Of a stretch of 64,000 nucleotides of DNA, positions 22,052 to 40,996 are shown piece by piece. Positions within the stretch are counted from its first letter, which is position 1, and the number at the start of each line of letters is the position of its first letter. The notes below the pieces were generated by a model. That model ran no database searches, was not told the DNA's origin, and worked only from the letters and a program-made list of their open reading frames with translations. The DNA lies in assembly GCF_020164485.1 (NCBI RefSeq), contig NZ_JAIQZA010000025.1, positions 1 to 64,000 on the forward strand, read 5' to 3'. The stretch is from Salegentibacter tibetensis (lineage in GTDB: Bacteria > Bacteroidota > Bacteroidia > Flavobacteriales > Flavobacteriaceae). Both the position numbers and the translations under genes were made by a program.

Positions 22052-22068
22052 TCGGAGCTTTCTGCGAA

Positions 22069-22407
22069 ATGAAAAAGATCAAATTCAAATGTTGGGTAGA
22101 GTACGAAGGGGAAAAATTCTACGGCCCCGGCCCAAACGAATTGATCAAGCAAATTAAGAAAGAGGGATCTCTTGCAAAAGCTGCAGGTCAAATGAATATG
22201 TCTTATAAAAAAGCTTGGAGCCTGGTTCAGAGATTGAATAATAATTCTGAAGATCCCTGGGTAATTTTAAAAAAAGGCGGACAACATGGTGGCGGGGCTG
22301 AGGTAACTCCAAATGCTATAAAAGCCGTCCAGGAATATGATAAACTACAGCAAAAGATTAATGAGCTGCTCAAGCAGCAGGAGGATTTGCTGAAAGTTTT
22401 AAAATAA
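22069..22407 (+). CDS. ModE-type winged-helix regulator (N-terminal domain only)
   Basis: A 112-residue LysR/ModE-like DNA-binding protein. The helix-turn-helix region GSLAKAAGQMNMSYKKAWSLVQ (~38-60, shortened here in text) matches ModE, as does GGQHGGGAEVTP (~80-91). The molybdate-binding MOP domains of full ModE are missing; the C-terminus is a short coiled coil. Stand-alone ModE-N proteins are common and often sit with molybdoenzymes. It lies 17 bp after the large subunit gene and is followed by a terminator, so it is the third gene of that operon and a likely local regulator. Confidence 0.9.
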   Translation: MKKIKFKCWVEYEGEKFYGPGPNELIKQIKKEGSLAKAAGQMNMSYKKAWSLVQRLNNNSEDPWVILKKGGQHGGGAEVTPNAIKAVQEYDKLQQKINELLKQQEDLLKVLK

Positions 22408-22445
22408 ATTGAAATAAGACGTTTGATAAGTTTTTTACACGTGAT

Positions 22446-22477
22446 AAACCAGCCCGTCCGCTTAGGAGGGCTGGTTT
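22446..22477 (+). terminator. Hairpin terminator after the IorAB-ModE unit
   Basis: A 10-bp stem AAACCAGCCC/GGGCTGGTTT (22446-22455/22468-22477). The T-run is short, so efficiency is uncertain. Confidence 0.65.
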
Positions 22478-22529
22478 CAGCTTCTAATTTATTTTAAATT
22501 ATAATCATATTTGATTCTGAAATAAACCT

Positions 22530-22560
22530 ACCTGACCGGACGGGCAGGTTGAGAATGACG
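22530..22560. repeat. Short intergenic dyad of the Bacteroidetes GAATGACG type
   Basis: ACCTG/CAGGT (22530-22534/22545-22549) followed by GAGAATGACG. The ending is the complement of the GTCATTCTGA start of the dyad at 5005, so it may be a degraded copy of the same class. Confidence 0.35.
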
Positions 22561-22616
22561 TTTTAAAGACTTTTTTAAATAGTTTATACCGATATATACA
22601 AGGATACATAACGTTA

Positions 22617-23771
22617 ATGCAAGGAAAAAGAAAAATATATCTCGACTATAATGCAAGCACTCCGGTAGATCAAAGAGTGGTTGATACTATGTTGCCATAT
22701 TTCACTGAAAAATTCGGAAATGCCAGCAGTGATCACATTTTTGGTTGGGATGCGGAGGAAGCAGTTGAAAATTCGCGGGAACAAATTGCCGGATTAATAA
22801 ATTGTAAAATCACTGAAATAACTTTTTCATCCGGTGCAACCGAAGCTGCCAATCTCGCACTGTTTGGTTTTTGTGAAAGAAACAGATATAAAGGCAATCA
22901 CATTATTACCTGTAAAACCGAGCATAAGGCTGTACTAGACACAATGCTGGCATTGCAAAGGAAAGGTTTTGAAGTCACCTATCTGGATGTGGATCTAGAA
23001 GGTAATATTGACCTTCAGGAACTAGCAGAGTCAATTACTTCGGAAACAATTCTCGTGTGCCTTATGCTGGCAAATAATGAAACCGGATTGATCCATCCCA
23101 TGCTGGAAATTGAAAAGATAGTGCACTCCAAAAATGTGAAATTGATGAGTGACATTACTCAGGCGGTGGGCAAAATTCCGATTGACCTAAAACGACTGAA
23201 TTTAGATCTGGCTATTTTCTCTTCTCATAAAATTTACGGGCCTAAAGGGGTAGGCGCATTGTACATTAATAAGAAAAATAAAGTGGAAATTGATCCTTAT
23301 GTTTTTGGTGGGGGACAGGAAAAGGCAATACGGCCCGGCACATTGAATGTTCCCGGAATTGTTGGCTTTGGTAAAGCCGCTAAAATTGCTTCTACTGAAA
23401 TAGAGAAAGAATCAGAAAGAATTTTAGATTTAAAAAATAAACTGGAAAGCGATCTGAAAATGATCGAGGATACTACAATCAATTCTGAAGCTTGTGACAG
23501 GCTTCCAAATACCACGAATATTTCATTTAAAAATATTGAAGGCGGCCAATTAGTTAGAAAACTGAATAATCTAGCCATTTCAAGGGGCTCGGCCTGTACC
23601 TCAAATACAGTTCAGGCCTCCCATGTTTTAAAAGCAATGGGGTTAGACGATGAATTGGCGTTATCTTCTATTCGTCTTAGTTTGGGAAATGGTACTACCC
23701 TGGAGGATATTAATTTTGCCGTAATGGAGATCACTAAAACTGTAAACAAGTTAAAAGGGATAATTGTATGA
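22617..23771 (+). CDS. Cysteine desulfurase (NifS/IscS class)
   Basis: PLP enzyme that takes sulfur from cysteine, 384 residues. Start MQGKRKIYLDYNASTP is typical; Lys205 in SSHKIYGPKG binds PLP, TEHKAVL (~101) supplies the His that stacks on it, and RGSACTS carries the catalytic Cys. The gene overlaps the XdhC gene by 4 bp and belongs to the molybdoenzyme maturation set. In Rhodobacter capsulatus a comparable NifS-type protein (NifS4) hands sulfur to molybdenum cofactor bound by XdhC, so this copy is probably dedicated to cofactor sulfuration rather than Fe-S assembly. No IscU or SufU gene is nearby. Confidence 0.92.
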   Translation: MQGKRKIYLDYNASTPVDQRVVDTMLPYFTEKFGNASSDHIFGWDAEEAVENSREQIAGLINCKITEITFSSGATEAANLALFGFCERNRYKGNHIITCKTEHKAVLDTMLALQRKGFEVTYLDVDLEGNIDLQELAESITSETILVCLMLANNETGLIHPMLEIEKIVHSKNVKLMSDITQAVGKIPIDLKRLNLDLAIFSSHKIYGPKGVGALYINKKNKVEIDPYVFGGGQEKAIRPGTLNVPGIVGFGKAAKIASTEIEKESERILDLKNKLESDLKMIEDTTINSEACDRLPNTTNISFKNIEGGQLVRKLNNLAISRGSACTSNTVQASHVLKAMGLDDELALSSIRLSLGNGTTLEDINFAVMEITKTVNKLKGIIV

Positions 23772-24922
23772 GGGAGTTGGATGCCATCATATCAAAATAT
23801 GAACTTCTGAGAGAACAGGATATTGAATGTGTACTCGCAACCGTTGTGCATGTGGAGGGATCCTCTTATCGAAGAGCAGGAGCAAGGATGCTGGTGGATG
23901 AATACGGAAATATTACCGGGGCAATTAGCGGAGGCTGCCTGGAGGGTGATGCACTCAGGAAGGCACTCCACGCAATGCACCAGCAACAAAATAAATTGGT
24001 TACTTATGATACCAGCGATGAGGACGATGCCGTAATTGGTGCCCAGCTGGGGTGCAACGGGATTATCCAGGTTTTGTTTGAACCCATGGATTATGAGGAT
24101 GCTCTTAATTCCTGTGAGTTGCTTAAAAAAGTAATTAATCAAAAGAAGCCGCTGGCAATTGTAGTGCAGTTTAATCTGAATAAATCTAAAGTTCAGCCGG
24201 GAACCAAAATGATAATTTCTGAAAATTCAGAAGTTATTGGCAGCAAGCCTAAAGAGGAATTATATAGGCATATCCTGGAACAGGCCATCCTGACCCTGAA
24301 AATTAACAATCCTAATTTTGCTGAATATTTACTTGAAGACGAAAATCATCATGTTTTTATTCAGAATTATCAGCCACCCCTAAAATTGATCATAGTTGGT
24401 GCCGGAAATGACGCCCAGGTTTTGGCACAACAGTCCGATTTGCTGGGTTGGGAGGTGGTAGTAACCGATGGACGACCTACCCATGCCAATAGGGAAAGGT
24501 TTGCTTCTTCTTGCCAGGTAATTGTCTCAAAGCCCGAACGAACCCTCGAAAATATCGAACTGGATAATCGCAGCTATTTTGTATTAATGAGCCATAATTA
24601 CAATTATGACCTGAGGGTTTTGAAGCTACTTTTAGCAGAAAAAACAATACCATACATTGGGATTCTTGGTCCTTTAAAAAAATACCAAAGGATGTTGAAA
24701 GATCTGGAAGAAGACGGGTTTGATGTTAAAGAGGAAGATTTAAACAAGATATACGCCCCCGTAGGTCTGGAAATAGGGGCCGAGACGCCTGCAGAGATCG
24801 GGCTTTCGATTCTAGCAGAAATTCAGTCGGTTTTAACGGGAAAGACTGCCAGGCCTTTAAGGGAAAAATCTTCTCCTATCCACAAAAAAGAGGATACTCA
24901 ATTTAAGCAGGTTCAGATTTGA
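23768..24922 (+). CDS. XdhC/CoxI family molybdenum-cofactor maturation protein
   Basis: Binds molybdopterin cofactor, protects it during sulfuration and inserts it into xanthine-oxidase-family enzymes. 384 residues with both family domains: the N-terminal XdhC/CoxI part (VVHVEGSSYRRAGARMLV ~26-43, GAISGGCLEGD ~51-61) and a C-terminal Rossmann domain (LIIVGAGNDAQVLAQQ ~207-222, YVLMSH-type block near FVLMSHNYNYD ~272, then IGILGP and IGAETPAEIGLSILAEI). It overlaps the desulfurase gene before it and the MocA-like gene after it, which fixes it in a translationally coupled trio. Confidence 0.93.
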   Translation: MRELDAIISKYELLREQDIECVLATVVHVEGSSYRRAGARMLVDEYGNITGAISGGCLEGDALRKALHAMHQQQNKLVTYDTSDEDDAVIGAQLGCNGIIQVLFEPMDYEDALNSCELLKKVINQKKPLAIVVQFNLNKSKVQPGTKMIISENSEVIGSKPKEELYRHILEQAILTLKINNPNFAEYLLEDENHHVFIQNYQPPLKLIIVGAGNDAQVLAQQSDLLGWEVVVTDGRPTHANRERFASSCQVIVSKPERTLENIELDNRSYFVLMSHNYNYDLRVLKLLLAEKTIPYIGILGPLKKYQRMLKDLEEDGFDVKEEDLNKIYAPVGLEIGAETPAEIGLSILAEIQSVLTGKTARPLREKSSPIHKKEDTQFKQVQI

Positions 24923-25527
24923 AGGAAAAGGTGAAAATAGGAATTATTATTCTTGCCGCAGGATCTTCCAGCCGCCTCGGTTATCCAAAACAAATAGTGG
25001 AATTCAGGGGGAAATCCTTACTTCAGCATAGTATAGAGGTTGCGGAATCCCTAAAATTTGACTCTAAGATCCTTGTTTTAGGAGCAAAGGCAAAAGAAAT
25101 TGAAAAGAAAATTGATTGCAGGAATTTTAAAATAGTATACAACCAAAATTGGAAAGAAGGAATGGGCACAAGTATTGGCAAAGGTACTTCTGAAGCGCTT
25201 AAACTTGAAGATGATCTGGACCATATTCTAATCCTGCTTTCAGATCAGCCTTTTATAACTTCAGAAAAGATTCAGGAATTGATACGGATACAACTCAGTA
25301 CTAATAAGCCGGCAACATTCTCAGAATATTTAGGTAATGTTGGAGTTCCCGCTATCTTTTCCCGATCACTTTTTTCTGACTTAAAAGGGTTGAAAGGAGA
25401 CCAGGGAGCTAAGAAACTGCTAAGAAATAAGAGTTTTGAATTCAGGACCGTACAATTTGAAAAAGGGATTTTTGATGTGGATACCGCTGCAGATGTTACT
25501 TTATTAAAACAGATGGAAGAAGAATGA
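24919..25527 (+). CDS. MocA-like nucleotidyltransferase (molybdenum cofactor cytidylyltransferase family)
   Basis: A 202-residue MobA-like NTP transferase. ILAAGSSSRLGYPKQ (~11-25) is the nucleotide-binding loop, LLSDQPFI (~101-108) the metal-binding DxP segment, and GDQGAKKLL (~155) the C-terminal helix region. In E. coli MocA adds CMP to molybdopterin for enzymes of the xanthine-oxidase family, which matches the context. The start is a TTG at 24919 that overlaps the XdhC stop (TTGA), or possibly a GTG four codons later; no ATG is available. It ends the coupled trio; the TSUP gene follows 82 bp later. Confidence 0.88.
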   Translation: MKEKVKIGIIILAAGSSSRLGYPKQIVEFRGKSLLQHSIEVAESLKFDSKILVLGAKAKEIEKKIDCRNFKIVYNQNWKEGMGTSIGKGTSEALKLEDDLDHILILLSDQPFITSEKIQELIRIQLSTNKPATFSEYLGNVGVPAIFSRSLFSDLKGLKGDQGAKKLLRNKSFEFRTVQFEKGIFDVDTAADVTLLKQMEEE

Positions 25528-27281: not shown

Positions 27282-28073
27282 ATGAGAACGTTAACCAATA
27301 TACCAAAATGTACAATTGTGGGCGCTGGCCCGGGAGATTCCGATTTAATTACTCTAAAAGCAGTAAAAGCCTTAAATAAAGCAGAAGTGGTACTGTATGA
27401 TGCCCTGGTAAATCCTGAAATCCTGGAACACGCTCCACAGGCCGAAAAAATCTTTGTTGGAAAAAGAAAAGGTTGCCATGCCTATGCCCAGGATCAAATA
27501 AATGAGCTTATCGTAAAATTTGCTATGGAGAAAGGGACGGTAGTACGTTTAAAAGGTGGTGATCCCTTTGTGTTTGGTAGGGGAAGTGAAGAGAAAAACT
27601 ATGCTAGTAAACATGGGGTAGCAGTAGAAGTAATTTCAGGAATTTCTTCGGCTATTTCTGTACCGGCTTCGGTGGGAATTCCGGTCACCAAACGGTATAC
27701 CGCTGAAAGCTTCTGGGTGATTACCGGAACAACTTCAGGGCATAAGCTCTCCAAAGATGTTGCCATGGCCGCAAAAACTTCAGCAACCGTTGTAATTTTA
27801 ATGGGAATGGGTAAACTTGCTGAAATTGTAGCTTTATATAAGGAAGAAGCTAAAGAGAAATTGCCGATTGCGATAATACAAAACGGTACATGCAAAGAGC
27901 AAAAGCTAATCGCCGGCAACATCAGTAATATTGAAAACCTGGTCAAAAAGTATAAATTAGGTACGCCTGCAATTATCATTATTGGGGAGGTGGTAAGAGA
28001 ATGTGAGGCTTATAATAAAGAGTTAAGCACAACGGAAATTGATGAATTTATACTTCAGAATTTGACTATATGA
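27282..28073 (+). CDS. cobA: Uroporphyrinogen-III C-methyltransferase
   Basis: Adds two methyl groups from SAM to uroporphyrinogen III to make precorrin-2, the precursor of siroheme. 263 residues, single-domain form without the CysG oxidase/chelatase half. Motifs: VGAGPGDSDLITLKA (~13-27), VVLYDALVNPEI, the VVRLKGGDPFVFGRGSEE segment (~86-103), GISSAISVPAS and PVTKR, and VVILMGM (~170). It lies beside the siroheme-dependent nirB locus and converges on its last gene, so its job here is most likely siroheme supply for nitrite reductase. A precorrin-2 dehydrogenase/ferrochelatase gene is not in the window. Confidence 0.95.
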   Translation: MRTLTNIPKCTIVGAGPGDSDLITLKAVKALNKAEVVLYDALVNPEILEHAPQAEKIFVGKRKGCHAYAQDQINELIVKFAMEKGTVVRLKGGDPFVFGRGSEEKNYASKHGVAVEVISGISSAISVPASVGIPVTKRYTAESFWVITGTTSGHKLSKDVAMAAKTSATVVILMGMGKLAEIVALYKEEAKEKLPIAIIQNGTCKEQKLIAGNISNIENLVKKYKLGTPAIIIIGEVVRECEAYNKELSTTEIDEFILQNLTI

Positions 28074-28166: not shown

Positions 28167-29615
28167 TTATCCAACCTTTTCCTGTATACGTTTTTCAAAG
28201 TCTGACTTTGAAGACTCGCAGAGCTGACATTTATAGGATTCTGGAAGCTTTTCAAAGCTGGTTCCTGGTGGGATTTCCTGAGTGATGTCTCCAAATTCTG
28301 CATCGTAAATACTAAGACAGGCCTTACATTGCCATATTTCCCTGCTCTTTTTTTCTTTTTTAGGTTCTGGTTCTGGCTTTTTTTTGGGTTTTTCTTCCTC
28401 TTCCCCCAACTGATTAAAATACATTTTACTTAATTCAATAAGTAGTCTTGGTAGTTCTACCTTATCTACATCCTGCACGTGAATCACATAATTTTGTGTA
28501 TTTGGGTCAAAATTTTGAGCATAGAGTAAATTGTAAGTATCGCGTAACCGCATACCTTCCAAGATCTGCCGGGCTTCATTTTTCTCAATCACAACCGCGG
28601 TAAAATAGTTGCTTTTTTTTGTAGAATCGAAAATTCCGAAAGTAAGCCCATAGGTACTAATGTCGTTTTGGTCAAAATTGGAGACCAGGTATTTTTTTAG
28701 TTTCAAAGCCTCTTCATTATCTACCGGAATATGCCAGTTTAACTCTAGCATTGAGTGCCGCACGTTAATTCCGCGCTTTCCGAGAAATTTTTCCCACTCG
28801 AGTTTCGACTTTTTTGGAATTCCTTTTATAATCAAAGATTTCCAGGGCGTAATTGAAATCTTTCCAATTTTAGATTCGGCACATAAATCACACATCGCTT
28901 TTAGGAAGTTTGTGTAATATTTATTATTTCGCCAGTAGAGTCCCAGCCAATAACTATCCATCCCAATTCTATTCATTCCTTCGTAATATGGGAAGGGGTG
29001 ATAGGGGATATCCAGGGATTTATCTATCGTACGATTATTGGTTTCCAAAGCATCGCTTAACAAATTAAAAATCATCCCAACCTCTTCGGGTTCTTCCTGA
29101 AGTATTTCCTCAATTCCATAAACAATATCTCCCACGTCCCAGGTATAGATAAGCGCCGGATAAACCTGCATTTGTTTCCAATGCGGTAATTGAATGTACA
29201 AATACCAATAATCTTCGTGTTCTGATGCTATAAAATTTAAATGCCCGGTAAATAAGGGAACCAAACGTTGTTTGGGGTCTGTGATGTTGACTTTTAAATT
29301 TGGGGGTATTCTAAACTGTTCCAGCACGTATAAATAGCGGTCGCCGGTAAGCCAGTGGGTTCCAGGAAAAATATCTGTAGTTACATAAGAAGAGACAATA
29401 TTTTCAGCTCCCTCGGTTTTTGGCGGAATAATTTGATATTTATCTTCTTTAGAAAAATTTTCAGCATCAATGGCTTTAGTGATTAAAATATCCTGCCGGG
29501 ATCCCAACGAAATAGAATTTGAACCGGATGCTTCGGCCAATTCTACGATTTCCTTTAATTCCGCAGGAGATAAAACCCCTCCTTTTATAATTAATCTTGA
29601 GAATGTTTTTTCCAT
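28167..29615 (-). CDS. Sulfite/nitrite-reductase-like protein with C-terminal rubredoxin domain
   Basis: 482 residues. The N-terminal part imitates the ferredoxin-like half-domain of siroheme reductases: IIKGGVLSPAELKEIVELAE (9-28) then SLGSRQDILI (37-46), and IPPNLKVNITDPKQ (103-116). A second half-domain follows at 251-290 (GKISITPWKSLIIKGIP), matching the L-T-P-x-Q-x-L-x-x-x-G strand of those enzymes. The four cysteines that hold the siroheme-coupled 4Fe-4S cluster are absent; the only upstream pair is C242-DL-C245. After a Lys/Glu/Pro linker (~405-425) comes a rubredoxin with Cys430, Cys433, Cys463, Cys466. So it looks like a reductase scaffold without siroheme catalysis joined to a one-electron carrier. 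Last gene of the nitrate operon, 50 bp after the nitrate reductase: an electron-delivery or assembly role there is inferred. Confidence 0.82.
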   Translation of the reverse strand: MEKTFSRLIIKGGVLSPAELKEIVELAEASGSNSISLGSRQDILITKAIDAENFSKEDKYQIIPPKTEGAENIVSSYVTTDIFPGTHWLTGDRYLYVLEQFRIPPNLKVNITDPKQRLVPLFTGHLNFIASEHEDYWYLYIQLPHWKQMQVYPALIYTWDVGDIVYGIEEILQEEPEEVGMIFNLLSDALETNNRTIDKSLDIPYHPFPYYEGMNRIGMDSYWLGLYWRNNKYYTNFLKAMCDLCAESKIGKISITPWKSLIIKGIPKKSKLEWEKFLGKRGINVRHSMLELNWHIPVDNEEALKLKKYLVSNFDQNDISTYGLTFGIFDSTKKSNYFTAVVIEKNEARQILEGMRLRDTYNLLYAQNFDPNTQNYVIHVQDVDKVELPRLLIELSKMYFNQLGEEEEKPKKKPEPEPKKEKKSREIWQCKACLSIYDAEFGDITQEIPPGTSFEKLPESYKCQLCESSKSDFEKRIQEKVG

Positions 29616-29665: not shown

Positions 29666-32600
29666 CTAAACAGCCGCCAAAATCTGCCGAACTTCGGTTT
29701 TACAACTTCCGCACCCCAAACCGGCACCGGTTTCTTTACAAAGAGCCGTAAAATCTTGATTTCCATTTTTAATGGCTTCTTCCAGGTTCCCGGCTCCAAC
29801 CTGGCTGCAGGAGCAAACCAGTTTTCCTTTTACCGGTTTACTGGTTCCTGAACCACGTAATAAGGTATCGCGCTTATCGGCCAGTTCCATCTTACTTTCA
29901 ATAAGTGTTTTAAACTGGGCAAATTCGTTTTTATCCCCCATTAAAATTGCACCAACCAGTAAATCATCTTTTACAATGCATTTTTTATAATAACGTTTAC
30001 TAACATCAATAAAAACAATTTCCTCATATGCAGGGTCGTTATCAGGGACATTAATGTCTCCAATACTACAAAGATCCAGGTCTTTAAATTTCAGAATATT
30101 CATTAGTACTGAACCCTGGTAAATACTGCCTACATCGCCGGCCAGAAAATTAGAAAGGGTCTCGGCCTGTTCTTCGGCTGCAGAGGTGATTCCGAACAAT
30201 TGACCTTTATATTCAGCAATTTCACCAATTGCAAAAATATCGGGATTAGAAGTTTGCAAATGCTCGTTTACCTTAACGCCGCGTCCACAATTTAGTCCGC
30301 TTTCTTTGACAATTTCAATATTTGGGCGTGTCCCAATGGCATAAGCAATGGCGTGTGCGTTAAGGATTTTTCCACTTTTCAGAGTAATATTTAGTTCACC
30401 GGGATTATCTTCATCGTCAAAAACAGTACTTACCTCGTTGTCAAAATAAATATTAATGCCCCGTTCCTGAACGTCCCTGGCCAGTAGTTTGCTGGAGAGG
30501 ATATCAAGCTGGCGCTCCATAAGCCGGGACGAACGTTGTACTATGGTAATTTTTATATTTTCCTTTTGAAGGGCCGCCGCCAGTTCAAGACCAAGCAGAC
30601 CCCCGCCTACAATCACCACATGTTGTTCTTCAGGTGGGAGGCCGGTATTTTCGAGGTAAGTTTTAAATTCATCGGCGTCTGCTTTGCTTCGCATCGTAAA
30701 TCTACCTGGTAAACCAAGCTGGGCATCTTTCGGAACAAATGCACGGCTTCCTGTTGCAACAATCAATTTATCAAAATGATGTTTTATCTCCAGATCATCG
30801 GTAACCGATTTATTTTTTTGGTCTATTTGGGAAATTGAACGGTCTTTATGAAGCTGGAGGTTTAATTTTCCCAGTTCAACTTCCTTGATTTTTAAAAGTT
30901 TCTCCCAGCTGAGTTCTTCCGTAACATACTCGGGCAGTAGAACACGATTGTAAAAAGGATGCTCTTCTTTTGAAAATACGTGCAACTCATCATCTTTATT
31001 GTGGTCACGATAATTTTGAAGAAATCGGAATGCAGCTGCCCCGGCTCCGATAATTATAATTTTTTCATTCGGCTTTTTATATTTTGAAACCGAAACCGTA
31101 GTGAATTTGAAGTCGGGTTCTTTTGACTGCGGATCAACCCGATTAAAGGTTAAGTTATTTGCCCGGTTAAGATCACTCTTAAGTTGTTTTCCCCAATGCA
31201 TCGGTAAAAATAGTACACCCGGCCTTACGTCTTTGGTGATTTTTGCTCGTATTCTAACATTTCCATTTTCGCTTTTTACTTCAACGACATCACCATTCTT
31301 AATAAAATTTTTAATACCATCTACAGGATTGATTTCTAAAACCGGTGAAGAATAATGTGTACGAAGTCGGGAGACCTTTCCCGTTTTTGTCATACTATGC
31401 CACTGGTCCCGAACCCTTCCTGTTGTTAGGATTAAAGGGAATTCTTCATCGGGTTGCGTAGATGTGTTATTAATTGAAGCAGGAATATTAAAAATCGCTT
31501 TTTTAGAAGGGGTATAAAACTGATGGTCCTCAAATAGCCTTTTAGTGCCAGGATGACGATATTCCGGTACTGGCCACTGAATGGTTCCTTCGTTTTTTAA
31601 GCGATCGTAGTTTAGGTGGGAAATATCTATATTGGTGCCTCTAGTCATTTCACAGTATTCTGCGTAAATTTCTTCAGTACTATTGTAGTTAAATTCAGTG
31701 AATCCCATTCTTTGCGCAAAATCACAAAAGATCTCTACATCTGCACGGGCTTCTCCGGGTGGGGTGAGTGCCTGTGGTAGATACGAAATCCGTCTTTCAG
31801 AATTTGTCATGGTACCTTCTTTTTCCAACCACCCGGCAGCCGGCAGCACTAAATCGGCATATTTTAAAGTATCAGATTTATGGGAGATTTCCTGTACTAC
31901 AACAAATTTGGCCTTTTTAAGTGCAGCTTCCGCTTTACGAACATCTGGCAAGCTCACTAACGGATTGGTGCAGGCAATCCATACCGCCTTTAATTTGCCG
32001 CTTTCCAGGGCATCAAACATCTCGGTAGCGGTGTAGCCTGGTTTTTCTGAAATCTTATCTATACCCCAAAAATTAGCAACTTCCTGTCTGTGTTCCGGAT
32101 TATTCAAATTTTTATGAACTGCGAGCAAATTGGCCATTCCACCAACTTCCCTTCCGCCCATGGCATTAGGTTGCCCCGTAAGAGAAAAGGGCCCATTGCC
32201 GGGTTTTCCCACTCTTCCGGTTATTAGGGAAAGATTAAGCAATGCGAAATTTTTATCGGTACCCACAGAACTTTGATTAAGCCCCATCGCCCACATACTG
32301 ATAAAACCTTTGGAGTGTCCAATCATTTCAGCAGCTTCTTTAATTTCTTCTACGGGAACGCCGCATTCTTTAGCTGCTTTTTTGAGAGAAAGTGAATATG
32401 CCTGTTTTTTATAATCCTGAAAGTTTTCAGTGTGTTCTTTTATAAAATCTTTGTCTATGTAGCCCCTTTCTATCAATCTTCGACCTATGGCGTTGAATAA
32501 AATAATATCGCTACCGGGAATTAGTTGAAGGTGAAGGTCGGCAAAGCGTGCAGAATCGGTTTTACGAGGGTCTACCACAATTACTTTAACATCTTCCGGG

Positions 32601-33190
32601 TTTTCTTCTTTATGTTTTTCCAGTCTACGGAAGAGAATAGGATGGCACCAGGCCGGGTTAGCGCCGGCTATTAAAAAACAATCGGCCAGTTCAATATCAT
32701 CATAAGAGACAGGCACCGAATCTTCCCCGAATGTTTTTTTATAGGCTACAACCGCCGAGCTCATGCATAAACGGGAATTGGTATCAATATTATTCGTGCC
32801 TAAAAAACCTTTGGTAAGTTTGTTGGCGATGTAATACTCTTCGGTAAGGCATTGCCCCGAAACGTAGAAACCAACGCTATCTGGTCCATATTTTTGAATG
32901 AGTGTTTTAAAAACCTGGGCGGCGCGATCAAGGCCATCATCCCAGCTTACCCGTTCCCGCGGATGGGATTTGCTCCAACGCATTTCCGGATGCAAAATCC
33001 TGTCAGACAAATCATTCGCCACATAATCAAGATTCATACCTTTTGAACATAGCATTCCGCGGTTTACAGGATGGTTTTTATCACCTTCAACCGTAATTTT
33101 ATTATCAGGGCTTTTTTGTGCTACAATACCACAGCCTACCCCGCAATAGGAGCAGGTAGTTTTAATTTCTTCTTTTAGTATTTTCTTCAT
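29666..33190 (-). CDS. nasA: Assimilatory nitrate reductase fused to FAD/NAD reductase and BFD [2Fe-2S] domain
   Basis: Reduces nitrate to nitrite in the cytoplasm. The first ~715 residues are the bis-MGD catalytic unit: Cys13, Cys16, Cys20 and Cys48 bind the 4Fe-4S cluster, SRLCMSSAVVAYKKTFG (~139-155) has the Cys ligand of molybdenum, and the C-terminal molybdopterin-binding domain contains TTGRVRDQWHSMTKTG. Residues ~720-1110 are a pyridine nucleotide-disulfide reductase (IIIGAGAAAFRFL for FAD, VVIVGGGLLGLELAAAL for NAD, AIGEIAEYKGQLFG). The end is a BFD-type site, CSCSQV and CGSCKTEV. Thus catalytic unit and NADH donor unit (NasA and NasB of others) are one 1174-residue chain, an arrangement known in flavobacteria. 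No signal peptide. It follows narK by 114 bp. Confidence 0.94.
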   Translation of the reverse strand: MKKILKEEIKTTCSYCGVGCGIVAQKSPDNKITVEGDKNHPVNRGMLCSKGMNLDYVANDLSDRILHPEMRWSKSHPRERVSWDDGLDRAAQVFKTLIQKYGPDSVGFYVSGQCLTEEYYIANKLTKGFLGTNNIDTNSRLCMSSAVVAYKKTFGEDSVPVSYDDIELADCFLIAGANPAWCHPILFRRLEKHKEENPEDVKVIVVDPRKTDSARFADLHLQLIPGSDIILFNAIGRRLIERGYIDKDFIKEHTENFQDYKKQAYSLSLKKAAKECGVPVEEIKEAAEMIGHSKGFISMWAMGLNQSSVGTDKNFALLNLSLITGRVGKPGNGPFSLTGQPNAMGGREVGGMANLLAVHKNLNNPEHRQEVANFWGIDKISEKPGYTATEMFDALESGKLKAVWIACTNPLVSLPDVRKAEAALKKAKFVVVQEISHKSDTLKYADLVLPAAGWLEKEGTMTNSERRISYLPQALTPPGEARADVEIFCDFAQRMGFTEFNYNSTEEIYAEYCEMTRGTNIDISHLNYDRLKNEGTIQWPVPEYRHPGTKRLFEDHQFYTPSKKAIFNIPASINNTSTQPDEEFPLILTTGRVRDQWHSMTKTGKVSRLRTHYSSPVLEINPVDGIKNFIKNGDVVEVKSENGNVRIRAKITKDVRPGVLFLPMHWGKQLKSDLNRANNLTFNRVDPQSKEPDFKFTTVSVSKYKKPNEKIIIIGAGAAAFRFLQNYRDHNKDDELHVFSKEEHPFYNRVLLPEYVTEELSWEKLLKIKEVELGKLNLQLHKDRSISQIDQKNKSVTDDLEIKHHFDKLIVATGSRAFVPKDAQLGLPGRFTMRSKADADEFKTYLENTGLPPEEQHVVIVGGGLLGLELAAALQKENIKITIVQRSSRLMERQLDILSSKLLARDVQERGINIYFDNEVSTVFDDEDNPGELNITLKSGKILNAHAIAYAIGTRPNIEIVKESGLNCGRGVKVNEHLQTSNPDIFAIGEIAEYKGQLFGITSAAEEQAETLSNFLAGDVGSIYQGSVLMNILKFKDLDLCSIGDINVPDNDPAYEEIVFIDVSKRYYKKCIVKDDLLVGAILMGDKNEFAQFKTLIESKMELADKRDTLLRGSGTSKPVKGKLVCSCSQVGAGNLEEAIKNGNQDFTALCKETGAGLGCGSCKTEVRQILAAV

Positions 33191-33304: not shown

Positions 33305-34705
33305 CTATGCATTTTGGTGGCTTAATTCCATAGCAGCTTCTTTCTCATCCTCCTGAGAAAAACGAATTGCCAGGCTAACGAGCCCTGCGGCTAGAATGCT
33401 GAAACCAATCCATAGAAATGCATCAGAAATTGCTGCTGAAGATGCCGAAGCTCTTGCTGCTTCAATTACTTCACTAGTGCGGCCTTCGTTAGCGGCGATT
33501 GCTGCTTCTTCGGCGGCAACCGATTTTATTTTTAAATACAGAGCTGCTAGAAACGCCCCTACATTACCGCCTGCACCCACAATTCCTGAGATAGAACCTA
33601 TGGCTTTTTTATTGATAAATGGAACCACAGCAAAGGTGGCGCCCTCTGCCATTTGTACTGCCAAACTAAATGCAGTAAGTAGTACAATGGCCATAATAAG
33701 ACTACCGGCCATAGAGAAGAGGGATAGGATTACTCCTTCAGCAATTAAAATTAGGGTGAGAAAGAACACACGGCCTCTTAATCCGCCTTTTTCCCCCGAT
33801 TTATCACCAAAGTATCCGCCCAGGGTCCTGGCAAAAAGGTTCATAAGTGCGAAAGCCAAAATAATGTTTCCGGCTGTTACCCGCTCCAGGTTAAAGGTGT
33901 CTTGCAGATAGCTGTCCATGGTACCATACACGGTAAGTTCTATTCCGAAACAAACCCCGTAAACTACAAAGAGTATCCAGACGCGATAATCTTTGATAGC
34001 GGTTAAAAATCCGTTTTTGTCCTTTTTAATAGGAATCCTTTTTCCCGACTTTTTTAAATCTGAAAAATTTCCTTCCGGGGTGTCCTGAGTAAAGAAGTAA
34101 TATATAAAACCCATACTGAAACAAACCAGCCCGGCCACAACCATAGCATAACGCCAAACTTCAGCTTCAGCCACTCCCAAAGCAACAAGCCCGGCGGCAA
34201 TTAATGGCATTCCCAGCCGATTTGCCCCGCCGCCCAGGTTACCCCAACCGGCGGATGTCGCATTGGCAGTTCCTACTATATTGGAAGCAAACATTAGTGA
34301 AGTATGTACCTGTGTAATTACAAACGAAGCTCCGATGAAACCCATAAACAAACGACAAAGCTGGAATTGCAATGGAGTTTGTACCAGCCCACAGAGAATG
34401 GTGGGAATGGCTCCCAACATCAACAACCAGGTGTAGCAGATCCTGGGACCGTACTTATCGCATAATTTACCAATAAGCAGTCGGGCAAAGACTGTTCCCG
34501 ATACAGCCAGGATAATCGCGTTCCATTTTTGAGAAGGGCTAAGCCCCAAATCTTTTTCCACCTGTGGCATAAATGGAACAATTCCAAACCAGGAGAAGAA
34601 ACAGATAAAAAAGGCAATGGCCGAAATCCAAAACGTCCTTATTGGAATACTTCTTAAGTTTCTTAAGTCTAACTTTGTTGCTTTACCAGTGATCACTTCT
34701 TTCAT
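33305..34705 (-). CDS. narK: NarK-type nitrate/nitrite transporter (MFS)
   Basis: Twelve-helix major facilitator protein, 466 residues, in the inner membrane. FSWFGIVPFMPQVEKDLGLSPSQKWNAI near residues 38-65 and the GWGNLGGGANRLGMPLI block (~153-169) match the nitrate signature of helix 5; GIVGAGGNVGAFLAAL (~370-385) is its partner in helix 11. The insertion before the last helix (~390-425) is Ala/Glu-rich. It imports nitrate for the fused reductase gene downstream and may export nitrite. A promoter-like block with a long palindrome lies in front (34730-34764), so it may start its own transcript within the cluster. Confidence 0.93.
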   Translation of the reverse strand: MKEVITGKATKLDLRNLRSIPIRTFWISAIAFFICFFSWFGIVPFMPQVEKDLGLSPSQKWNAIILAVSGTVFARLLIGKLCDKYGPRICYTWLLMLGAIPTILCGLVQTPLQFQLCRLFMGFIGASFVITQVHTSLMFASNIVGTANATSAGWGNLGGGANRLGMPLIAAGLVALGVAEAEVWRYAMVVAGLVCFSMGFIYYFFTQDTPEGNFSDLKKSGKRIPIKKDKNGFLTAIKDYRVWILFVVYGVCFGIELTVYGTMDSYLQDTFNLERVTAGNIILAFALMNLFARTLGGYFGDKSGEKGGLRGRVFFLTLILIAEGVILSLFSMAGSLIMAIVLLTAFSLAVQMAEGATFAVVPFINKKAIGSISGIVGAGGNVGAFLAALYLKIKSVAAEEAAIAANEGRTSEVIEAARASASSAAISDAFLWIGFSILAAGLVSLAIRFSQEDEKEAAMELSHQNA

Positions 34706-34931: not shown

Positions 34932-35603
34932 TTAAATCAAATTAAGTTCACGGGATTTATGGGTAAGTTCCATAAGGTTTTTTACTTCTAACTTTTTCAT
35001 CAAATTAAATCGGTGGGCTTCAGCAGTTCGCTTACTTATTTTAAGATCGGCCCCAATTTCCTGATTATTTTTTCCTTCTAAAATGAGTTTCAGAATTTGT
35101 TTTTCCCTTTTCGTAAGTATGTTTAGTGCCGGATCTTGTTTATGGGCTGACTCATTTAATTGCTTTTCAGAATTTCCACTAACAAAATTATTAACGATAA
35201 TCGCAGAAACATCTCCACTAAAATATTTGCCTCCCCCGGCAATTTTGTTAATGGCTTTAAGGAATTCTTCCTTGCTGGAGCCTTTTAGTAAATAGCCATC
35301 TGCACCTGCCTCTACGCACTGCACTACGTATTCGGTAGAATCATGCATAGAGAGGACTAGTGTTTTTAAATCGGGAAAATCCTTTTTTACTTTTTTCACC
35401 ACTTCAATGCCGTTAAGCTCTGGCATTCGTATATCTACGATGAGTAAATCCGGAATGTCTTTTTCAATAATTTCCAGGGCTTCTTTACCGTTGGCCGCTT
35501 CATTTACCACTTCCAGGTTATCCTCGTTTTCCAGTAAGGCAATAATGCCATCACGTACCAATTCGTGATCATCGGCTAAAAGTATTTTGGTTTTGCCCAT
35601 CAT
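34932..35603 (-). CDS. NarL/FixJ-type response regulator
   Basis: 223 residues: receiver domain (1-125) with the acidic pocket DD at 11-12, phosphoacceptor Asp57 in LLIVDIRMPE and Lys in LLKGSS (~108), then a LuxR-type helix-turn-helix (~155-220; LTKREKQILKLILEGKNNQE, then SKRTAEAHRFNLMKKL). It follows the histidine kinase gene by 46 bp in the nitrate cluster and is most likely its partner; the probable targets are the nirB and narK promoters. Between this gene and the kinase there is a TACG-rich string (35617-35632). Confidence 0.92.
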   Translation of the reverse strand: MMGKTKILLADDHELVRDGIIALLENEDNLEVVNEAANGKEALEIIEKDIPDLLIVDIRMPELNGIEVVKKVKKDFPDLKTLVLSMHDSTEYVVQCVEAGADGYLLKGSSKEEFLKAINKIAGGGKYFSGDVSAIIVNNFVSGNSEKQLNESAHKQDPALNILTKREKQILKLILEGKNNQEIGADLKISKRTAEAHRFNLMKKLEVKNLMELTHKSRELNLI

Positions 35604-35649: not shown

Positions 35650-37467
35650 TTAATCTTGTTCTAACGGAAAATTAAGCGTTACCCGTGTCCCTTCTCCCGG
35701 TGAAGAATTAATAAATAGTCGGCCATTAATAAATTTTACACGTTCTTTCATAAAGGTAAGGCCCATTCCGCGATTGCCGTTTTTTTCTTCTGAAATGCTT
35801 TTTGGGTCAAAACCTTTGCCGTTGTCTTCAATACCAATACTTAGGATTTCCTTACTGTGGCTCACACTAACAATAATATGCGTGGAGCCTGCATACTTGA
35901 TGGCATTATTCACAGCTTCCTGGGTGATGCGGTATAGGTTTATTTCGGTAATATTCCCCAGTCGCTGTGAAAACCCGGTTTTATTAAATAAAATAATATC
36001 CTTTCCGGTAAGTTTTGATAACTCTTCGGTGAGTTTTTGAAGTGCTGGTACTATCCCGTGGTCAGTAAGTTCGGGTGGTGTTAGGTTGAAAGTAGCAGCG
36101 CGAACCCCCTGAATAATTCTTGTGCTTAATTCTTTTAAACTTTCAATTTTGCTTTCGGCCTTTTCAGGATATTTAAAATCTATACTTTCCAGGTTGTATT
36201 TAAGCCCCGTTAGCATCTGGCCAATTCCGTCGTGAATATCTTTAGCAATTCGGTTTTGCTCGTTTTCCTGATTTTCAATGATCTTTTTAGCAATCAAGCC
36301 ATGCTGCCGCATCTTTTCTTCATAGCTCTTGCGGGTTAATTCCTCAATTTTTAGCTGTGCTTCTTTATTTTTGGTTATATCTACCCCAATAATAGTAAGT
36401 TCGGTTTTTTCTTTTTCCGGTTGAAACGGCACTATGGAAAGTTCCAGCCAAATATCTTTTTTATCTTTGGTAGAGGCTTTTACTTCTCCCTGCCAGCCCG
36501 ATCTTTTATGTGCTGAAATGAGTTTTTCAATATTGAGTTGCTCATTTTCTTTGGGTGATAATATTTCGGAGAATTTAGTCTCCATATTAAATTTTTTATA
36601 CTGAAATAATTTTGAAAATCGTTCACCTATATGCAAAATATCGCCATTTGGTGTAATTCGGGCAAATAGTAAGATTTTATCCATTGCCTGCCCGAGTGCA
36701 CGTAACTCTTTTACAGATTTTTCACGGGCTTCGCTTATGGCATCTGCATCACGGGCCATTTTTACAGCTCGGGATTCTGCGTGAATCAGGTTTTTGATGT
36801 TATTTTTAACACCTTTGGCCGCCGGTAAAAAAATGAAGAAAAATTCCAGGAGTAAAATAGAAAGAGTGAAAATTGTTAAAAATAATTCCAAACTCTGAAG
36901 TCTCTCTACCCGGGTATGTGCCTCTTCATCATATTGATTTACCATCGCATCCATGAGCTCAAGAAAAGAGGCTTCATTTTCTAAAATCTGTGCTATTTCT
37001 GATGAAAAATCTTCTGTAGGACGCCCCGGGTTTTCTTCTATTTTCAGCAATAAACTCTTAGAAGCTTCCTCAATTGCTTCAAAATAAGGTTGGATCTCAA
37101 TAAATTTCTGCTGAATTTCAGGGCTTTTTTCCGAAGCAATATTTAAACTGTCGCTACCATTTTGAAAGACCTCGTGAGAATGCACCCAGCGCTTAAGGCT
37201 CATCTCGAGGCTTTCAGCAAGGCTTTCTCGCTTCTCTATATTTTCGGTTTCAGAAAGTAAAAGGCTTTCTTTGGTGAGTTTCTGACTCAACATTCGCTGG
37301 CGTCCTGAAATATTGATGAGTTTGGAATCGCCTTCCTGTTCTTCAAGAAATTTTCCGATAAATAACTGACTTATAATTACCGAAAGCGCAATGGCCGTGA
37401 GGGCCAGAATGTATAGCTTTCTAAGTTTTATAAAGGTGTGTTGGTCTAGAGAGCTACGGGGCGCCAT
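35650..37467 (-). CDS. NarX-like histidine kinase with PilJ-type sensor, PAS and HisKA_3
   Basis: 605 residues, inner membrane. TM1 ~15-35, then a periplasmic four-helix sensor with NISGRQRMLSQKL (~47-59), the P-box-like motif shared by PilJ/NarX nitrate sensors; TM2 ~190-215; coiled linker; a PAS domain (~255-375); HisKA_3 with IAKDIHDGIGQMLTGLKYNL (~410-430, phosphoacceptor His) and a HATPase_c domain with NAIKYA, GIEDNGKGF and GNRGMGL. The nitrate-binding Arg of the NarX P-box has a plausible counterpart in the GRQRM segment. It starts 3 bp after the DUF4202 gene, so its expression is tied to nirBD. Confidence 0.9.
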   Translation of the reverse strand: MAPRSSLDQHTFIKLRKLYILALTAIALSVIISQLFIGKFLEEQEGDSKLINISGRQRMLSQKLTKESLLLSETENIEKRESLAESLEMSLKRWVHSHEVFQNGSDSLNIASEKSPEIQQKFIEIQPYFEAIEEASKSLLLKIEENPGRPTEDFSSEIAQILENEASFLELMDAMVNQYDEEAHTRVERLQSLELFLTIFTLSILLLEFFFIFLPAAKGVKNNIKNLIHAESRAVKMARDADAISEAREKSVKELRALGQAMDKILLFARITPNGDILHIGERFSKLFQYKKFNMETKFSEILSPKENEQLNIEKLISAHKRSGWQGEVKASTKDKKDIWLELSIVPFQPEKEKTELTIIGVDITKNKEAQLKIEELTRKSYEEKMRQHGLIAKKIIENQENEQNRIAKDIHDGIGQMLTGLKYNLESIDFKYPEKAESKIESLKELSTRIIQGVRAATFNLTPPELTDHGIVPALQKLTEELSKLTGKDIILFNKTGFSQRLGNITEINLYRITQEAVNNAIKYAGSTHIIVSVSHSKEILSIGIEDNGKGFDPKSISEEKNGNRGMGLTFMKERVKFINGRLFINSSPGEGTRVTLNFPLEQD

Positions 37468-38485: not shown

Positions 38486-40996
38486 TTAAGTCCAGGCTTT
38501 GGGCATTTTTTGGTCACGCAAAGGCACAAAACTAATATTATCATCCCCTTCATCTGAATTGACAAAATGTTTAAAACGCTTCATCATTTCAGGATCTTCA
38601 ATAGCCTGTTTCCATTCACATTCGTAATTGGCAACTAAGCCCTGCATTTCTTTTTCAAGGTCTTCGGCAATTCCTAATGAATCTTCAATAACCACTTTTT
38701 TGAGGTGTTCAATGCCACCGTCCAATTTTTCTAACCAGGGTGCGGTACGCATTAAGGGTGCGGCCGTACGGATGTAATACATCAAAAAGCGATCTAGGTA
38801 TTTCATGGTGGTTTCATCGTCTAAACCTTCAGCAAGTAAAATGGCGTGTTTTGGCGTAGCACCTCCATTTCCACATACGTATAAATTCCAACCAGATTCT
38901 ACGGCAATAATGCCAAAATCCTTTCCGCGGGCTTCAGCACATTCCCTAATACAGCCGGAAACTCCGCCTTTTAATTTATGCGGTGAGCGCAAACCTCGAT
39001 AGCGTTCTTCAATTTGAATGGCAAAGCTCACGCTTTCATGCATTCCGAACCGGCACCAGGTAGAACCAACACAGCTTTTAACCGTTCGAAGGGATTTTCC
39101 GTAGGCATGGCCACTTTCAAATCCTGCGTCAATCAATTCCTTCCATATTTCAGGCAGTTGGTGCAATTCGGCACCAAAAAGATCTATACGTTGCCCGCCG
39201 GTGATTTTAGTATAAAGGTCAAATTTCTTAGCTACGGCGCCTATAGTCATTAATTTATCTGGAGTAATTTCACCGCCCGGTATGCGTGGAACGATAGAAT
39301 AAGTCCCATTTCGTTGAATATTGGCTAAAAATTTATCGTTACTATCTTGAATGGTCACTTGTTTATTGGCGGTTTCCATAGTAATACTTGCGAAAATTGA
39401 AGCCAGAACCGGTTTGCATTTTTCGCAACCATGACCTTTTCCGAAGAGATTCAGTGCTTCATCAAAATCTTTGACTTTATTAATTTTCACTAAATCAAGA
39501 AGTTCCTGTCGGTTAAAATCGAAATGTTCGCAAATCACCTCGTTTACTTCCTTTCCAAGGGATTTCATGGTAGCGTTAAACAGGTCTGTAACCATAGGTT
39601 TACAACCGCCACAACCGGTAGAGGCTTTAGTTTTGGCCACAACATCATCCATCGAGCAACATTCACCACTTTCCAAAGGATTGCAGATGTCACCTTTCGA
39701 AACTGCCTCACAAGAACAAATTTGAGCGGTATCGGGTAACTCGGATACTGAACCAAGGGCCGTATTTTCCCCGCCACGACTTCCCAGAATAAGGTCTTCA
39801 GGGTTTTCAGGAAGTTTTATTCCGTTGATATATAGCTGAAATAAATTCTGATAATCTGAAGCATCGCCCACTAAAATTCCACCGAGTAGTTTCTTACCAT
39901 CCCGGGATACTTTTATACGTTTATAAATCCCACTTTGTTTATTTTCGTAGGTAATGGCAGAAACTTCTTCATTTTCAATAAACGGATCGCCAAAACTGGC
40001 CACATCGGTACCAATTAGTTTTAATTGGGTAGACATATCAATATGATCGGCCATAGTTTTATCACCACCACAAATTTGAGAAACGGCAACCTCGGCCATA
40101 TTATATCCCGGGGCGACAAGTCCATAAATAGCGTTGTTGTAGAGTGCAGCCTCACCAATGGCGTATACACCTTTGGCCGAGGTCTCCATTTTATTGTTCA
40201 CGTTGATGCCGCCGCGCTCGCCAGTTTTAAGTCCGCCAGATTTTGCCAGTTCATCCCGGGGCCGAATTCCAGCAGAAATAATAAGCATATCGGTTTCATG
40301 CCGGGAGCCATCTGAAAATGTGAGCGCATCAATTTCTTCTTCACCACTAATTTCTGAAGTGGCTTTATTGGTTAGGATTGTTATGCCTAAACTCTCAATT
40401 TTACGAAGAAGGGTGTTACTGCCGGCTTCGTCCAGCTGCCGCGGCATTAGCCTTGGCGCAAATTCTACCACGCTGGTGTCCAGGCCGAGTTCTTTAGCTG
40501 CGTTGGCCGCTTCCAGTCCTAATAGTCCGCCGCCCAACACCGTGGCTTTTGATTTGTTTTTCTTCTGAAGTTTCTTCGCATAGGTTTTTATAGCATCCAG
40601 ATCTTCTGTAGTACGATAAACAAAGACCCCCGTTTTTTCTGAACCTTTGATTGATGGTATAAAAGCCGAAGAACCCGTTGCAAGCACCAGGTAATCGTAA
40701 CTTATTTTTTCACCTTTATATGTGGTGACATTTTTTTCTTCAGTATTGATTTCTGAAATAAGAGAAGAAGTACGTAGTTCAATTCCATTCTCTTCATACC
40801 ATTCCCTGGGAGCCAGGAGTAGTTCGTCCTTTCTTTTTTCTGAGAAATATTCACTAAGGTGAACGCGATCATAAGCCGGACTCGGCTCTTCTCCAAACAC
40901 CTGAATTTGGTAGCTTTCCCTATCAGGACGGGCTATCAATTTCTCGCAAAATTTATAACCAACCATTCCGTTTCCTACTACAAGTATTTTTTTCAT
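38486..40996 (-). CDS. nirB: NADH-dependent nitrite reductase large subunit
   Basis: Six-electron reduction of nitrite to ammonium, cytoplasmic, 836 residues. Order of domains: FAD/NAD reductase (VVGNGMVGYKF at 5-15, ATVLGGGLLGLEAANAA ~152-168), two BFD-like [2Fe-2S] regions (CSCEAVSKGD ... CGGCKP ~427-466, and CEHF ... GCEKCKP ~490-525), then ferredoxin-like half-domain (~550-615) and the siroheme/4Fe-4S domain with CVGSTWCRFG (~640) and GGVSGCIRECAEA (~678). All four siroheme-site Cys are present. First gene of the minus-strand nitrate run; promoter elements lie directly upstream. Confidence 0.96.
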   Translation of the reverse strand: MKKILVVGNGMVGYKFCEKLIARPDRESYQIQVFGEEPSPAYDRVHLSEYFSEKRKDELLLAPREWYEENGIELRTSSLISEINTEEKNVTTYKGEKISYDYLVLATGSSAFIPSIKGSEKTGVFVYRTTEDLDAIKTYAKKLQKKNKSKATVLGGGLLGLEAANAAKELGLDTSVVEFAPRLMPRQLDEAGSNTLLRKIESLGITILTNKATSEISGEEEIDALTFSDGSRHETDMLIISAGIRPRDELAKSGGLKTGERGGINVNNKMETSAKGVYAIGEAALYNNAIYGLVAPGYNMAEVAVSQICGGDKTMADHIDMSTQLKLIGTDVASFGDPFIENEEVSAITYENKQSGIYKRIKVSRDGKKLLGGILVGDASDYQNLFQLYINGIKLPENPEDLILGSRGGENTALGSVSELPDTAQICSCEAVSKGDICNPLESGECCSMDDVVAKTKASTGCGGCKPMVTDLFNATMKSLGKEVNEVICEHFDFNRQELLDLVKINKVKDFDEALNLFGKGHGCEKCKPVLASIFASITMETANKQVTIQDSNDKFLANIQRNGTYSIVPRIPGGEITPDKLMTIGAVAKKFDLYTKITGGQRIDLFGAELHQLPEIWKELIDAGFESGHAYGKSLRTVKSCVGSTWCRFGMHESVSFAIQIEERYRGLRSPHKLKGGVSGCIRECAEARGKDFGIIAVESGWNLYVCGNGGATPKHAILLAEGLDDETTMKYLDRFLMYYIRTAAPLMRTAPWLEKLDGGIEHLKKVVIEDSLGIAEDLEKEMQGLVANYECEWKQAIEDPEMMKRFKHFVNSDEGDDNISFVPLRDQKMPKAWT

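Follow-up and report, generated by a model that had tools for sequence, protein, structure and literature searches.

The Bacteroidota are abundant in the sea and in soil, and their assimilation of nitrate is usually read as the work of NasA and NirBD. For the fold of the sulfite/nitrite reductases (SNiRs), represented by SiRHP/CysI, NirA and plant NiR, the cluster coupled to siroheme has long been regarded as the hallmark, and the cluster cysteines are retained in CobG (precorrin-3B synthase), whereas they are missing from the protein described here. In SiRHP, residues R83, R153, K215 and K217 make up what we take to be the anion site. Maturation proteins of the NarJ type have a fold different from that of the SNiRs. 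According to published accounts, the Rieske protein NasG of Paracoccus carries electrons from NasB to NasC (PMC5424462, PMC6618116, PMC4724949), NasC is assembled by the factor NarJ in the same organism, whose nas cluster lacks a dedicated maturation gene (PMC6618116), and the nitrate reductase of Chlamydomonas redirects electrons to partners involved in the handling of nitric oxide (PMC7412212).

Here we analyzed a protein whose gene adjoins that of the nitrate reductase in Salegentibacter tibetensis, within a stretch of 64,000 nucleotides (contig NZ_JAIQZA010000025.1) that is referred to below as the window. We call it RbSN, a working name coined in the present analysis only. RbSN shares with SiRHP/CysI, NirA and plant NiR the whole fold, in which the pair of ferredoxin-like half-domains is accompanied by both of the remaining domains, and it bears R7, R40, N72 and K108-x-N110 at homologous places, but it differs from them in the lack of the cluster motifs (0/107 relatives), of PF01077 and of the R153 equivalent, and in the added rubredoxin tail. 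With NirB/NasB and NirD/NasG it has in common the pathway and the gene cluster, in which the FAD/[2Fe-2S] module recurs in NasA; NasG, however, is a small Rieske protein, whereas in RbSN a rubredoxin attached to a body of SNiR fold is the carrier, and the cluster encodes NirD in addition. The succession of redox core, linker and C-terminal rubredoxin, with a NorW-like flavin module adjoining, is that of NorV/NorW, but the core has the SNiR fold rather than that of a flavodiiron protein, and the NorW-like module lies inside NasA. CobG belongs to the same SNiR superfamily, but RbSN falls far under the CobG cut-off. A likeness to NarJ-type proteins would consist in a possible role beside a cytoplasmic molybdenum nitrate reductase, the presence of a rubredoxin setting RbSN apart.

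Gene neighborhood and domain architecture of RbSN

The preliminary description of this locus, made from the sequence alone, had reported an open reading frame with two half-domain signatures of siroheme reductases and a fused rubredoxin. The frame, which opens with ATG and encodes 482 residues, and all of the quoted motifs are present as described (Table 1). The two signatures correspond to two stretches matching PF03460 (NIR_SIR_ferr; E 6.3e-12 for the protein as a whole, with 45.5 bits where the cut-off is 24), of which the second scores 22.5 bits by itself in the DNA search, under the cut-off, and the rubredoxin is matched by PF00301 over residues 428-473 (E 1.1e-13). In the Pfam searches at E<=1, RbSN matched neither PF01077, the 4Fe-4S/siroheme domain (NIR_SIR), nor Rieske or flavodiiron families. 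Pfam and NCBIfam hold no family covering the whole protein, and the NCBIfam matches are partial and far under the respective cut-offs (rubredoxin, NorV tail, CobG, NirA and CysI-type): the NorV family reaches 32.4 against 711 bits over the tail only, residues 406-478, and CobG, the strongest match of SNiR type (E 0.0012, residues 213-285), 17.8 against an equivalog cut-off of 234.8 bits. The protein has six cysteines in all, at positions 242, 245, 430, 433, 463 and 466.

Table 1. Positions of RbSN, its parts and the neighboring nitrate genes in the window
Feature	Coordinates	Strand	Basis
RbSN, rubredoxin-tailed, cluster-less SNiR-fold protein, 482 aa	28167..29615	-	ORF, Pfam, AlphaFold2 model
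SNiR-fold body, residues 1-406, without paired cluster cysteines	28398..29615	-	Profile alignment, models, cysteine counts
First NIR_SIR_ferr half-domain, residues 6-46, with R7, R40, Q41	29478..29600	-	Pfam
Second NIR_SIR_ferr half-domain, below cut-off by itself	28794..28907	-	Pfam
C242-x-x-C245	28881..28892	-	C245 in 107/107, C242 in 100/107 relatives
Linker, charged, low-confidence, residues 407-424	28344..28397	-	Sequence, model
Rubredoxin domain, residues 425-478 (C430, C433, C463, C466)	28182..28343	-	Pfam, model, alignment
Fused NasA, 1174 aa: Mo/4Fe-4S, NirB/NorW-like FAD-NADH and BFD [2Fe-2S] parts	29666..33190	-	Pfam, NCBIfam
NarK-type nitrate/nitrite transporter	33305..34705	-	Pfam, NCBIfam
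NarL-like response regulator	34932..35603	-	Pfam, NCBIfam
Histidine kinase with PilJ sensor domain (NarX/NarQ-like)	35650..37467	-	Pfam, NCBIfam
NirD, Rieske-type small subunit, 125 aa	38061..38438	-	Rieske_2, PF13806, E 1.5e-27
NirB, NADH siroheme nitrite reductase large subunit	38486..40996	-	Pfam, NCBIfam
Uroporphyrinogen-III C-methyltransferase (siroheme synthesis)	27282..28073	+	Pfam, NCBIfam

As the preliminary description also had it, the gene follows that of the fused nitrate reductase NasA on the same strand after a gap of 50 bp. The flavin part of NasA is NorW-like (NADH:flavorubredoxin reductase; E 1.5e-47) and includes a Rubredoxin_C domain. The name NirD was assigned from the Rieske_2 family and the place of the gene after nirB. 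The source genome (4.2 Mb, 187 contigs) has a single RbSN copy, and its SNiRs are NirB and one full SNiR encoded on a different contig. Further genes lie in or beside the nitrate cluster. A DUF4202 protein (37471-38049, minus strand; PF13875, E 1.7e-77), a homologue of which is present in 27/80 related loci, is encoded between nirD and the nitrate-sensor-like kinase; genes for a molybdenum hydroxylase large subunit (MoCoBD), an aminotransferase V, XdhC and a MobA-like protein adjoin the cluster (19775-25527, plus strand); and an FAD-dependent oxidoreductase with a C-terminal Rieske domain is encoded just past nirB (41625-43148, plus strand).

An SNiR fold without the paired cluster-cysteine motifs

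Profile-profile alignment against seven full-length SNiRs covered RbSN residues 5-405 (E 5e-5, probability 67.5%), and sulfite/nitrite reductases occupied the top ranks of a Foldseek search with the AlphaFold2 model of the window protein (1zj8, E 8.7e-16; mean pLDDT 85.6 from 60 sequences). In VIA-align 2, residues 6-406 of this model matched SiRHP (3aop) with Z 26.2 over 370 aligned residues (rmsd 3.8), and residues 425-478 matched rubredoxins with Z of about 9 (1rdg, Z 9.6); sequence identity to the SNiRs in the structural alignments was 10-15%. A second modelled member, L045 from Echinicola arenosa (45% identical, pLDDT 89.0), gave Z 29.9 against SNiRs (378 aligned residues, rmsd 3.5). Because both models match SNiRs, residues 1-406 represent the complete SNiR fold and not merely two half-domains, and the reductase scaffold proposed in the preliminary description, which a fold search might have shown to be dissimilar from SNiRs, is thus borne out. 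A chance motif match is ruled out by Pfam, the profile-profile alignment and the two structure models. In a profile search of solved structures, the best 60 of 67 matches at E<=1 were all rubredoxins, rubredoxin-fused chains or rubredoxin-bearing enzymes; hhalign against the SNiR part of NirB alone matched 35 columns only; and a viral fold library gave no match at E<=0.001.

The cluster cysteines were assessed in a family alignment of 107 relatives, consisting of 81 and 26 further members, 10 of the latter being orphans, i.e., copies that lack the rubredoxin and lie away from nasA. The C-x5-C and C-x3-C motifs of the SNiR cluster occur in 0/107 relatives versus 7/7 SNiR controls, in line with the absence noted earlier for the window protein. 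All four cluster ligands of SNiRs fall within the stretch 267-406. It is cysteine-free in 68 of the 107, the window protein included, and the remaining 39 have one (17) or two to five (22) cysteines there, none with SNiR spacing; the statement that the ligands are absent refers to cysteine counts and spacing, residue correspondence in the cluster loops being uncertain. Since the paired cluster cysteines were looked for and not found, RbSN is not to be filed as a siroheme reductase, and the loss of the ligand motifs makes an ordinary siroheme nitrite reductase unlikely. Elsewhere in the body, cysteine columns occupied in at least 20% of the members are 245 (107/107), 242 (100/107), 254 (28) and 151 (24). 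The idea of a strict C-x2-C redox pair is weakened by the absence of C242 from 7/107. Conserved C245, with C242 in most relatives, goes beyond the preliminary description, and so does the finding, documented below, that the link to nasA is both strict and widespread.

Loss of the ligands, together with the low identity to SNiRs, would also suit a decayed reductase kept in the operon as a passive scaffold or hitch-hiker, but 48 body columns do not vary at all among 17 diverse members, the majority of these columns being kept in the orphans too, and purifying selection persists even after separation from nasA; we therefore regard decay as very improbable. Several front-face residues are retained: R or K at position 7 in 102/107, R40, Q41 and N72 in all 107, K or R at 108 in 105/107 and N110 in 105/107. 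The structural alignments to 4htr begin with the pairing of residue 83 with residue 7 of the window model and with residue 8 of L045, and the equivalents of SiRHP R83, K215 and K217/N226 are kept in RbSN, whereas that of R153 is lost, the aligned position 71 being Q, E, P, H or A and never R or K in the 107. In addition, a near-invariant set comprising R229, C245, K259, N284, R286, H287, E291 and others is common to nasA-linked and orphan members, with no counterpart that could be assigned. The loop 284-295 was considered as one ordered by a cofactor, being near-invariant with pLDDT <60 in the window model, but it reaches about 76 in the second model, and the idea was set aside. At least 21 members of the second deep branch (L025-L030, L179-L183 and every one of the ten orphans) have a cysteine where the window protein has T325, within the SNiR ligand stretch; this cysteine is absent from the branch of the window protein.

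Because pocket residues are retained and orphans exist, a bound ligand or catalysis can be argued for, and this constitutes the main rival explanation: RbSN would be an enzyme in which the rubredoxin replaces the [4Fe-4S] cluster in feeding a tetrapyrrole or other center of a remodelled pocket, for instance to remove nitric oxide or a different by-product arising from nitrate reduction. Its layout of core, flexible linker, C-terminal rubredoxin and adjoining NorW-like module is that of NorV/NorW, as reflected in the NorW-like match of the NasA flavin part and the NorV-like match of residues 406-478; the persisting front-face residues (7, R40, N72, 108 and N110), the near-invariant set from R229 to E291 and the cysteine at the T325 place, a possible iron ligand of the second branch, likewise speak for it; purifying selection on the orphans indicates that the body is functional in its own right; and two orphans are encoded beside siroheme sulfite reductase and hem genes. 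The partner proteins handling nitric oxide in Chlamydomonas offer a parallel (PMC7412212). Against this stand the position of SiRHP R153, which is never occupied by R or K, the 68/107 members cysteine-free in 267-406, which leaves no bridging siroheme thiolate there, the orphans entirely devoid of rubredoxin, and the 8/10 orphans for which the BLAST queries used revealed no siroheme reductase or hem neighbors. On balance, we consider an enzymatic role rather unlikely. Its more specific version, a catalytic siroheme-type fold without [4Fe-4S] in which the NasA flavin would supply NADH electrons, the rubredoxin would feed a tetrapyrrole or other center, and nitrite or nitric oxide would be handled, appears doubtful; if true, the sulfite/nitrite reductase superfamily would have a one-electron branch that does without the cluster and extends across the Bacteroidota.

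Linkage to nasA and distribution across genomes

A species genome scan yielded at least 578 confirmed RbSN-encoding stretches, of which the best 80 were kept; their titles name Bacteroidota or Balneolota, bar one given only as 'bacterium'. In each of these best 80 loci, the RbSN gene comes immediately after that of fused NasA and is read in the same direction; NasA is complete in 79 of them, and in L082 a contig edge leaves just the 3' end of its gene. The lack of a conserved nasA link that would have refuted the preliminary description was thus not observed. The gaps between the two genes, which depend on the start codons that we chose, range from -4 to 2431 bp, with 22 overlaps, 50 within 50 bp and 5 above 300 bp, the largest (2.4 kb) being that of L055. 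A degenerate single copy or an assembly error is ruled out by the number of encoding stretches, and internal stops were found in 0/33 long matches of the phylum draw described below; in the family draw, G126 shows a TAA because its match continues beyond the end of the frame. In L122, a PF09655 'nitrate reductase-associated' protein is encoded between nasA and the RbSN gene (L122:9796-10299, minus strand). Four plasmid records carry RbSN, which is labelled just 'rubredoxin' in both annotated plasmid records examined; the order on the Spirosoma oryzicola plasmid is nirD, nirB, cobA, porin, narK, nitrate reductase, 'rubredoxin'. In G194, from another family of the window's class, NasA, RbSN and NirB (C17:3318-16214) match those of the window at 75, 65 and 72%, compared with 76, 64 and 68% for the best of the window's own family; because the former is as close as the latter, the cluster of the three genes appears to move between families as a unit. 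A description of RbSN was not found among the papers listed in searches of the open-licence PMC literature.

Co-occurrence was counted in two overlapping genome draws, one of 392 genomes from the phylum and one of 194 from the family of G388, with cut-offs that vary between searches (1e-3 and 1e-20 for RbSN, 1e-100 and 1e-200 for NasA, 1e-60 and 1e-150 for NirB); G033, G091, G370, G388 and G126 gave matches in both draws. Among the 392, RbSN was matched in 109, with a full-length body in 33 and rubredoxin only in the others among the matches listed; fused NasA was found in 36 and NirB in 31, all three genes occurring in the same 31. Among the 194, RbSN was found in 50, fused NasA in 41 and NirB in 50, and all 41 NasA genomes have both others. 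Thus, in raw counts without phylogenetic correction, RbSN is present in 69/69 genomes with fused NasA and NirB (31 and 41, 3 being shared). By contrast, RbSN is present in 0/5 genomes with fused NasA in which NirB was not found at E<=1e-60 (G219, G050, G008, G155 and G179), all outside the window's class. Each of these NasA-only loci has an NirA-type SNiR near nasA; four of them (L132-L135) also have an FAD/NAD(P)H reductase, and L132, L133 and L135 a flavodoxin, which was not found in the frame tested in L134. In L134, one of the five, a single-domain globin is encoded directly upstream of fused nasA (L134:5787-6233, plus strand), a pair reminiscent of the nasC-haemoglobin pair of Bradyrhizobium. 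Among the nine genomes of the family draw with NirB and no detected NasA, RbSN occurs in one, G410, where the copy starts 655 bases into a contig of 7,969 bases, a contig-edge case; the 8/9 that lack it weaken the case for a role connected solely with NirB or with the supply of siroheme.

The strict adjacency to nasA, with its frequent overlaps, would also be expected of an assembly factor for fused NasA (or NirB), the body binding the unfinished enzyme and the rubredoxin holding or sensing iron or redox state, on the model of NarJ, which matures NarG and, in Paracoccus, NasC (PMC6618116). Yet fused NasA occurs without RbSN in 5/36 genomes of the phylum draw and NirB in 8/50 of the family draw, so that neither enzyme needs RbSN in general, and 8 genomes have retained an orphan although NasA and NirB were both not found in them. 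An assembly function thus seems rather improbable.

The orphans are shorter RbSN bodies encoded in ten genomes of the family of G388. In the 30 loci of the family draw that were read, 20 rubredoxin tails have the four cysteines and the 10 orphans lack them; across the alignment, the four cysteines are present in 97/97 aligned members outside the orphan clade and 0/10 inside. In the phylum draw, RbSN without NasA occurs in two genomes, G388 and G126, in both cases without rubredoxin. Neither fused NasA nor NirB was found in 8/10 orphan genomes, the other two (G505 and G471) having NasA, NirB and a rubredoxin-bearing RbSN beside nasA. A tree covering 37 of the relatives in the alignment groups the orphans into a single clade (100/99) within the rubredoxin-bearing members, which implies a single loss of the rubredoxin rather than ten. 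The orphans are under purifying selection: the closest pair has a dN/dS of 0.029 at dS 1.40, and two pairs whose dS exceeds 2 have 0.065 and 0.089, values that represent 3/7 pairs, the other four being saturated. Because they persist under such selection, the function of the body is separable from both rubredoxin and nasA. The service in nitrate or nitrite reduction envisaged in the preliminary description accordingly agrees with the nasA-linked members, including all NasA- and NirB-encoding genomes of the two draws (31/31 and 41/41), but not with the orphan clade. L180 (G398) is a rubredoxin-bearing copy away from nasA in a genome that also has a nasA-linked copy. The orphans with siroheme sulfite reductase and hem genes beside them are L127 and L174; one of the remaining eight, L128, is at a contig start, and no common theme emerged among the neighbors of other orphans covered by family searches. 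The two sulfite reductases (L127:10418-12547, plus strand; L174:5106-7226, minus strand) are of about 700 residues and bear a C-terminal extension matching HEPN (PF05168, E 1.9e-7 in L127; the L174 extension is 66% identical to that of L127).

A putative redox partner of the nitrate reductase

The explanation that we favor, with a probability of roughly 0.38, is that RbSN, an SNiR-fold protein devoid of the cluster, serves the NADH nitrate reductase of the Bacteroidota as a redox partner, with its rubredoxin bridging NADH modules. Fused NasA and NirB share a homologous NirB-type FAD/[2Fe-2S] module, on which the SNiR-fold body would dock in both enzymes; the tethered rubredoxin would then accept electrons from one module, at its NADH-reduced flavin or [2Fe-2S] center, and deliver them to the other enzyme, and such sharing could balance nitrate against nitrite reduction and avoid a build-up of nitrite. 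RbSN would in this way play the part that NasG has between NasB and NasC in Paracoccus, by analogy. This electron path, the cofactors and the purpose are inferred. A redox-partner role at the flavin/[2Fe-2S] module is favored by three observations: the NorW-like part of NasA, the coexistence pattern and a contrast between NasA proteins with and without the partner. Among conserved NasA positions, 5/90 in the FAD-BFD part separate the two groups versus 0/148 in the Mo part (Fisher p 0.007), and with looser limits 8/111 versus 4/226 (p 0.023), a hint that involves five related negatives and a FAD-BFD part that evolves faster.

Several points speak against a redox partner. NasA looks self-sufficient, judging from its redox-center cysteines, which are intact both with and without RbSN; the one negative failing at the N-terminal cysteines, G179, is unaligned at its N terminus, with a match from residue 157, probably owing to a frameshift. 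A rubredoxin replacing a lost NasA center is hence unsupported, and because NasA keeps its cluster cysteines regardless, RbSN comes as an addition rather than as a replacement. The cluster already includes a possible bridge in NirD, and the orphans keep near-invariant residues for which a mere docking body would have no need. The co-occurrence is moreover confounded by shared descent and linkage, as one deletion could remove nasA and RbSN together.

RbSN is a real, widespread and under-annotated variant of the SNiR fold and probably an unrecognized redox partner in the conversion of nitrate to ammonium by Bacteroidota. A third protein thus accompanies the NasA/NirB pair wherever both were found in the genomes drawn, and the label 'rubredoxin' conceals most of it, whether it is a redox partner or an enzyme. 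If RbSN is a catalyst, the siroheme-reductase fold would work without its coupled cluster; if it controls the sharing of electrons, it would set the release of nitrite and nitric oxide by Bacteroidota.
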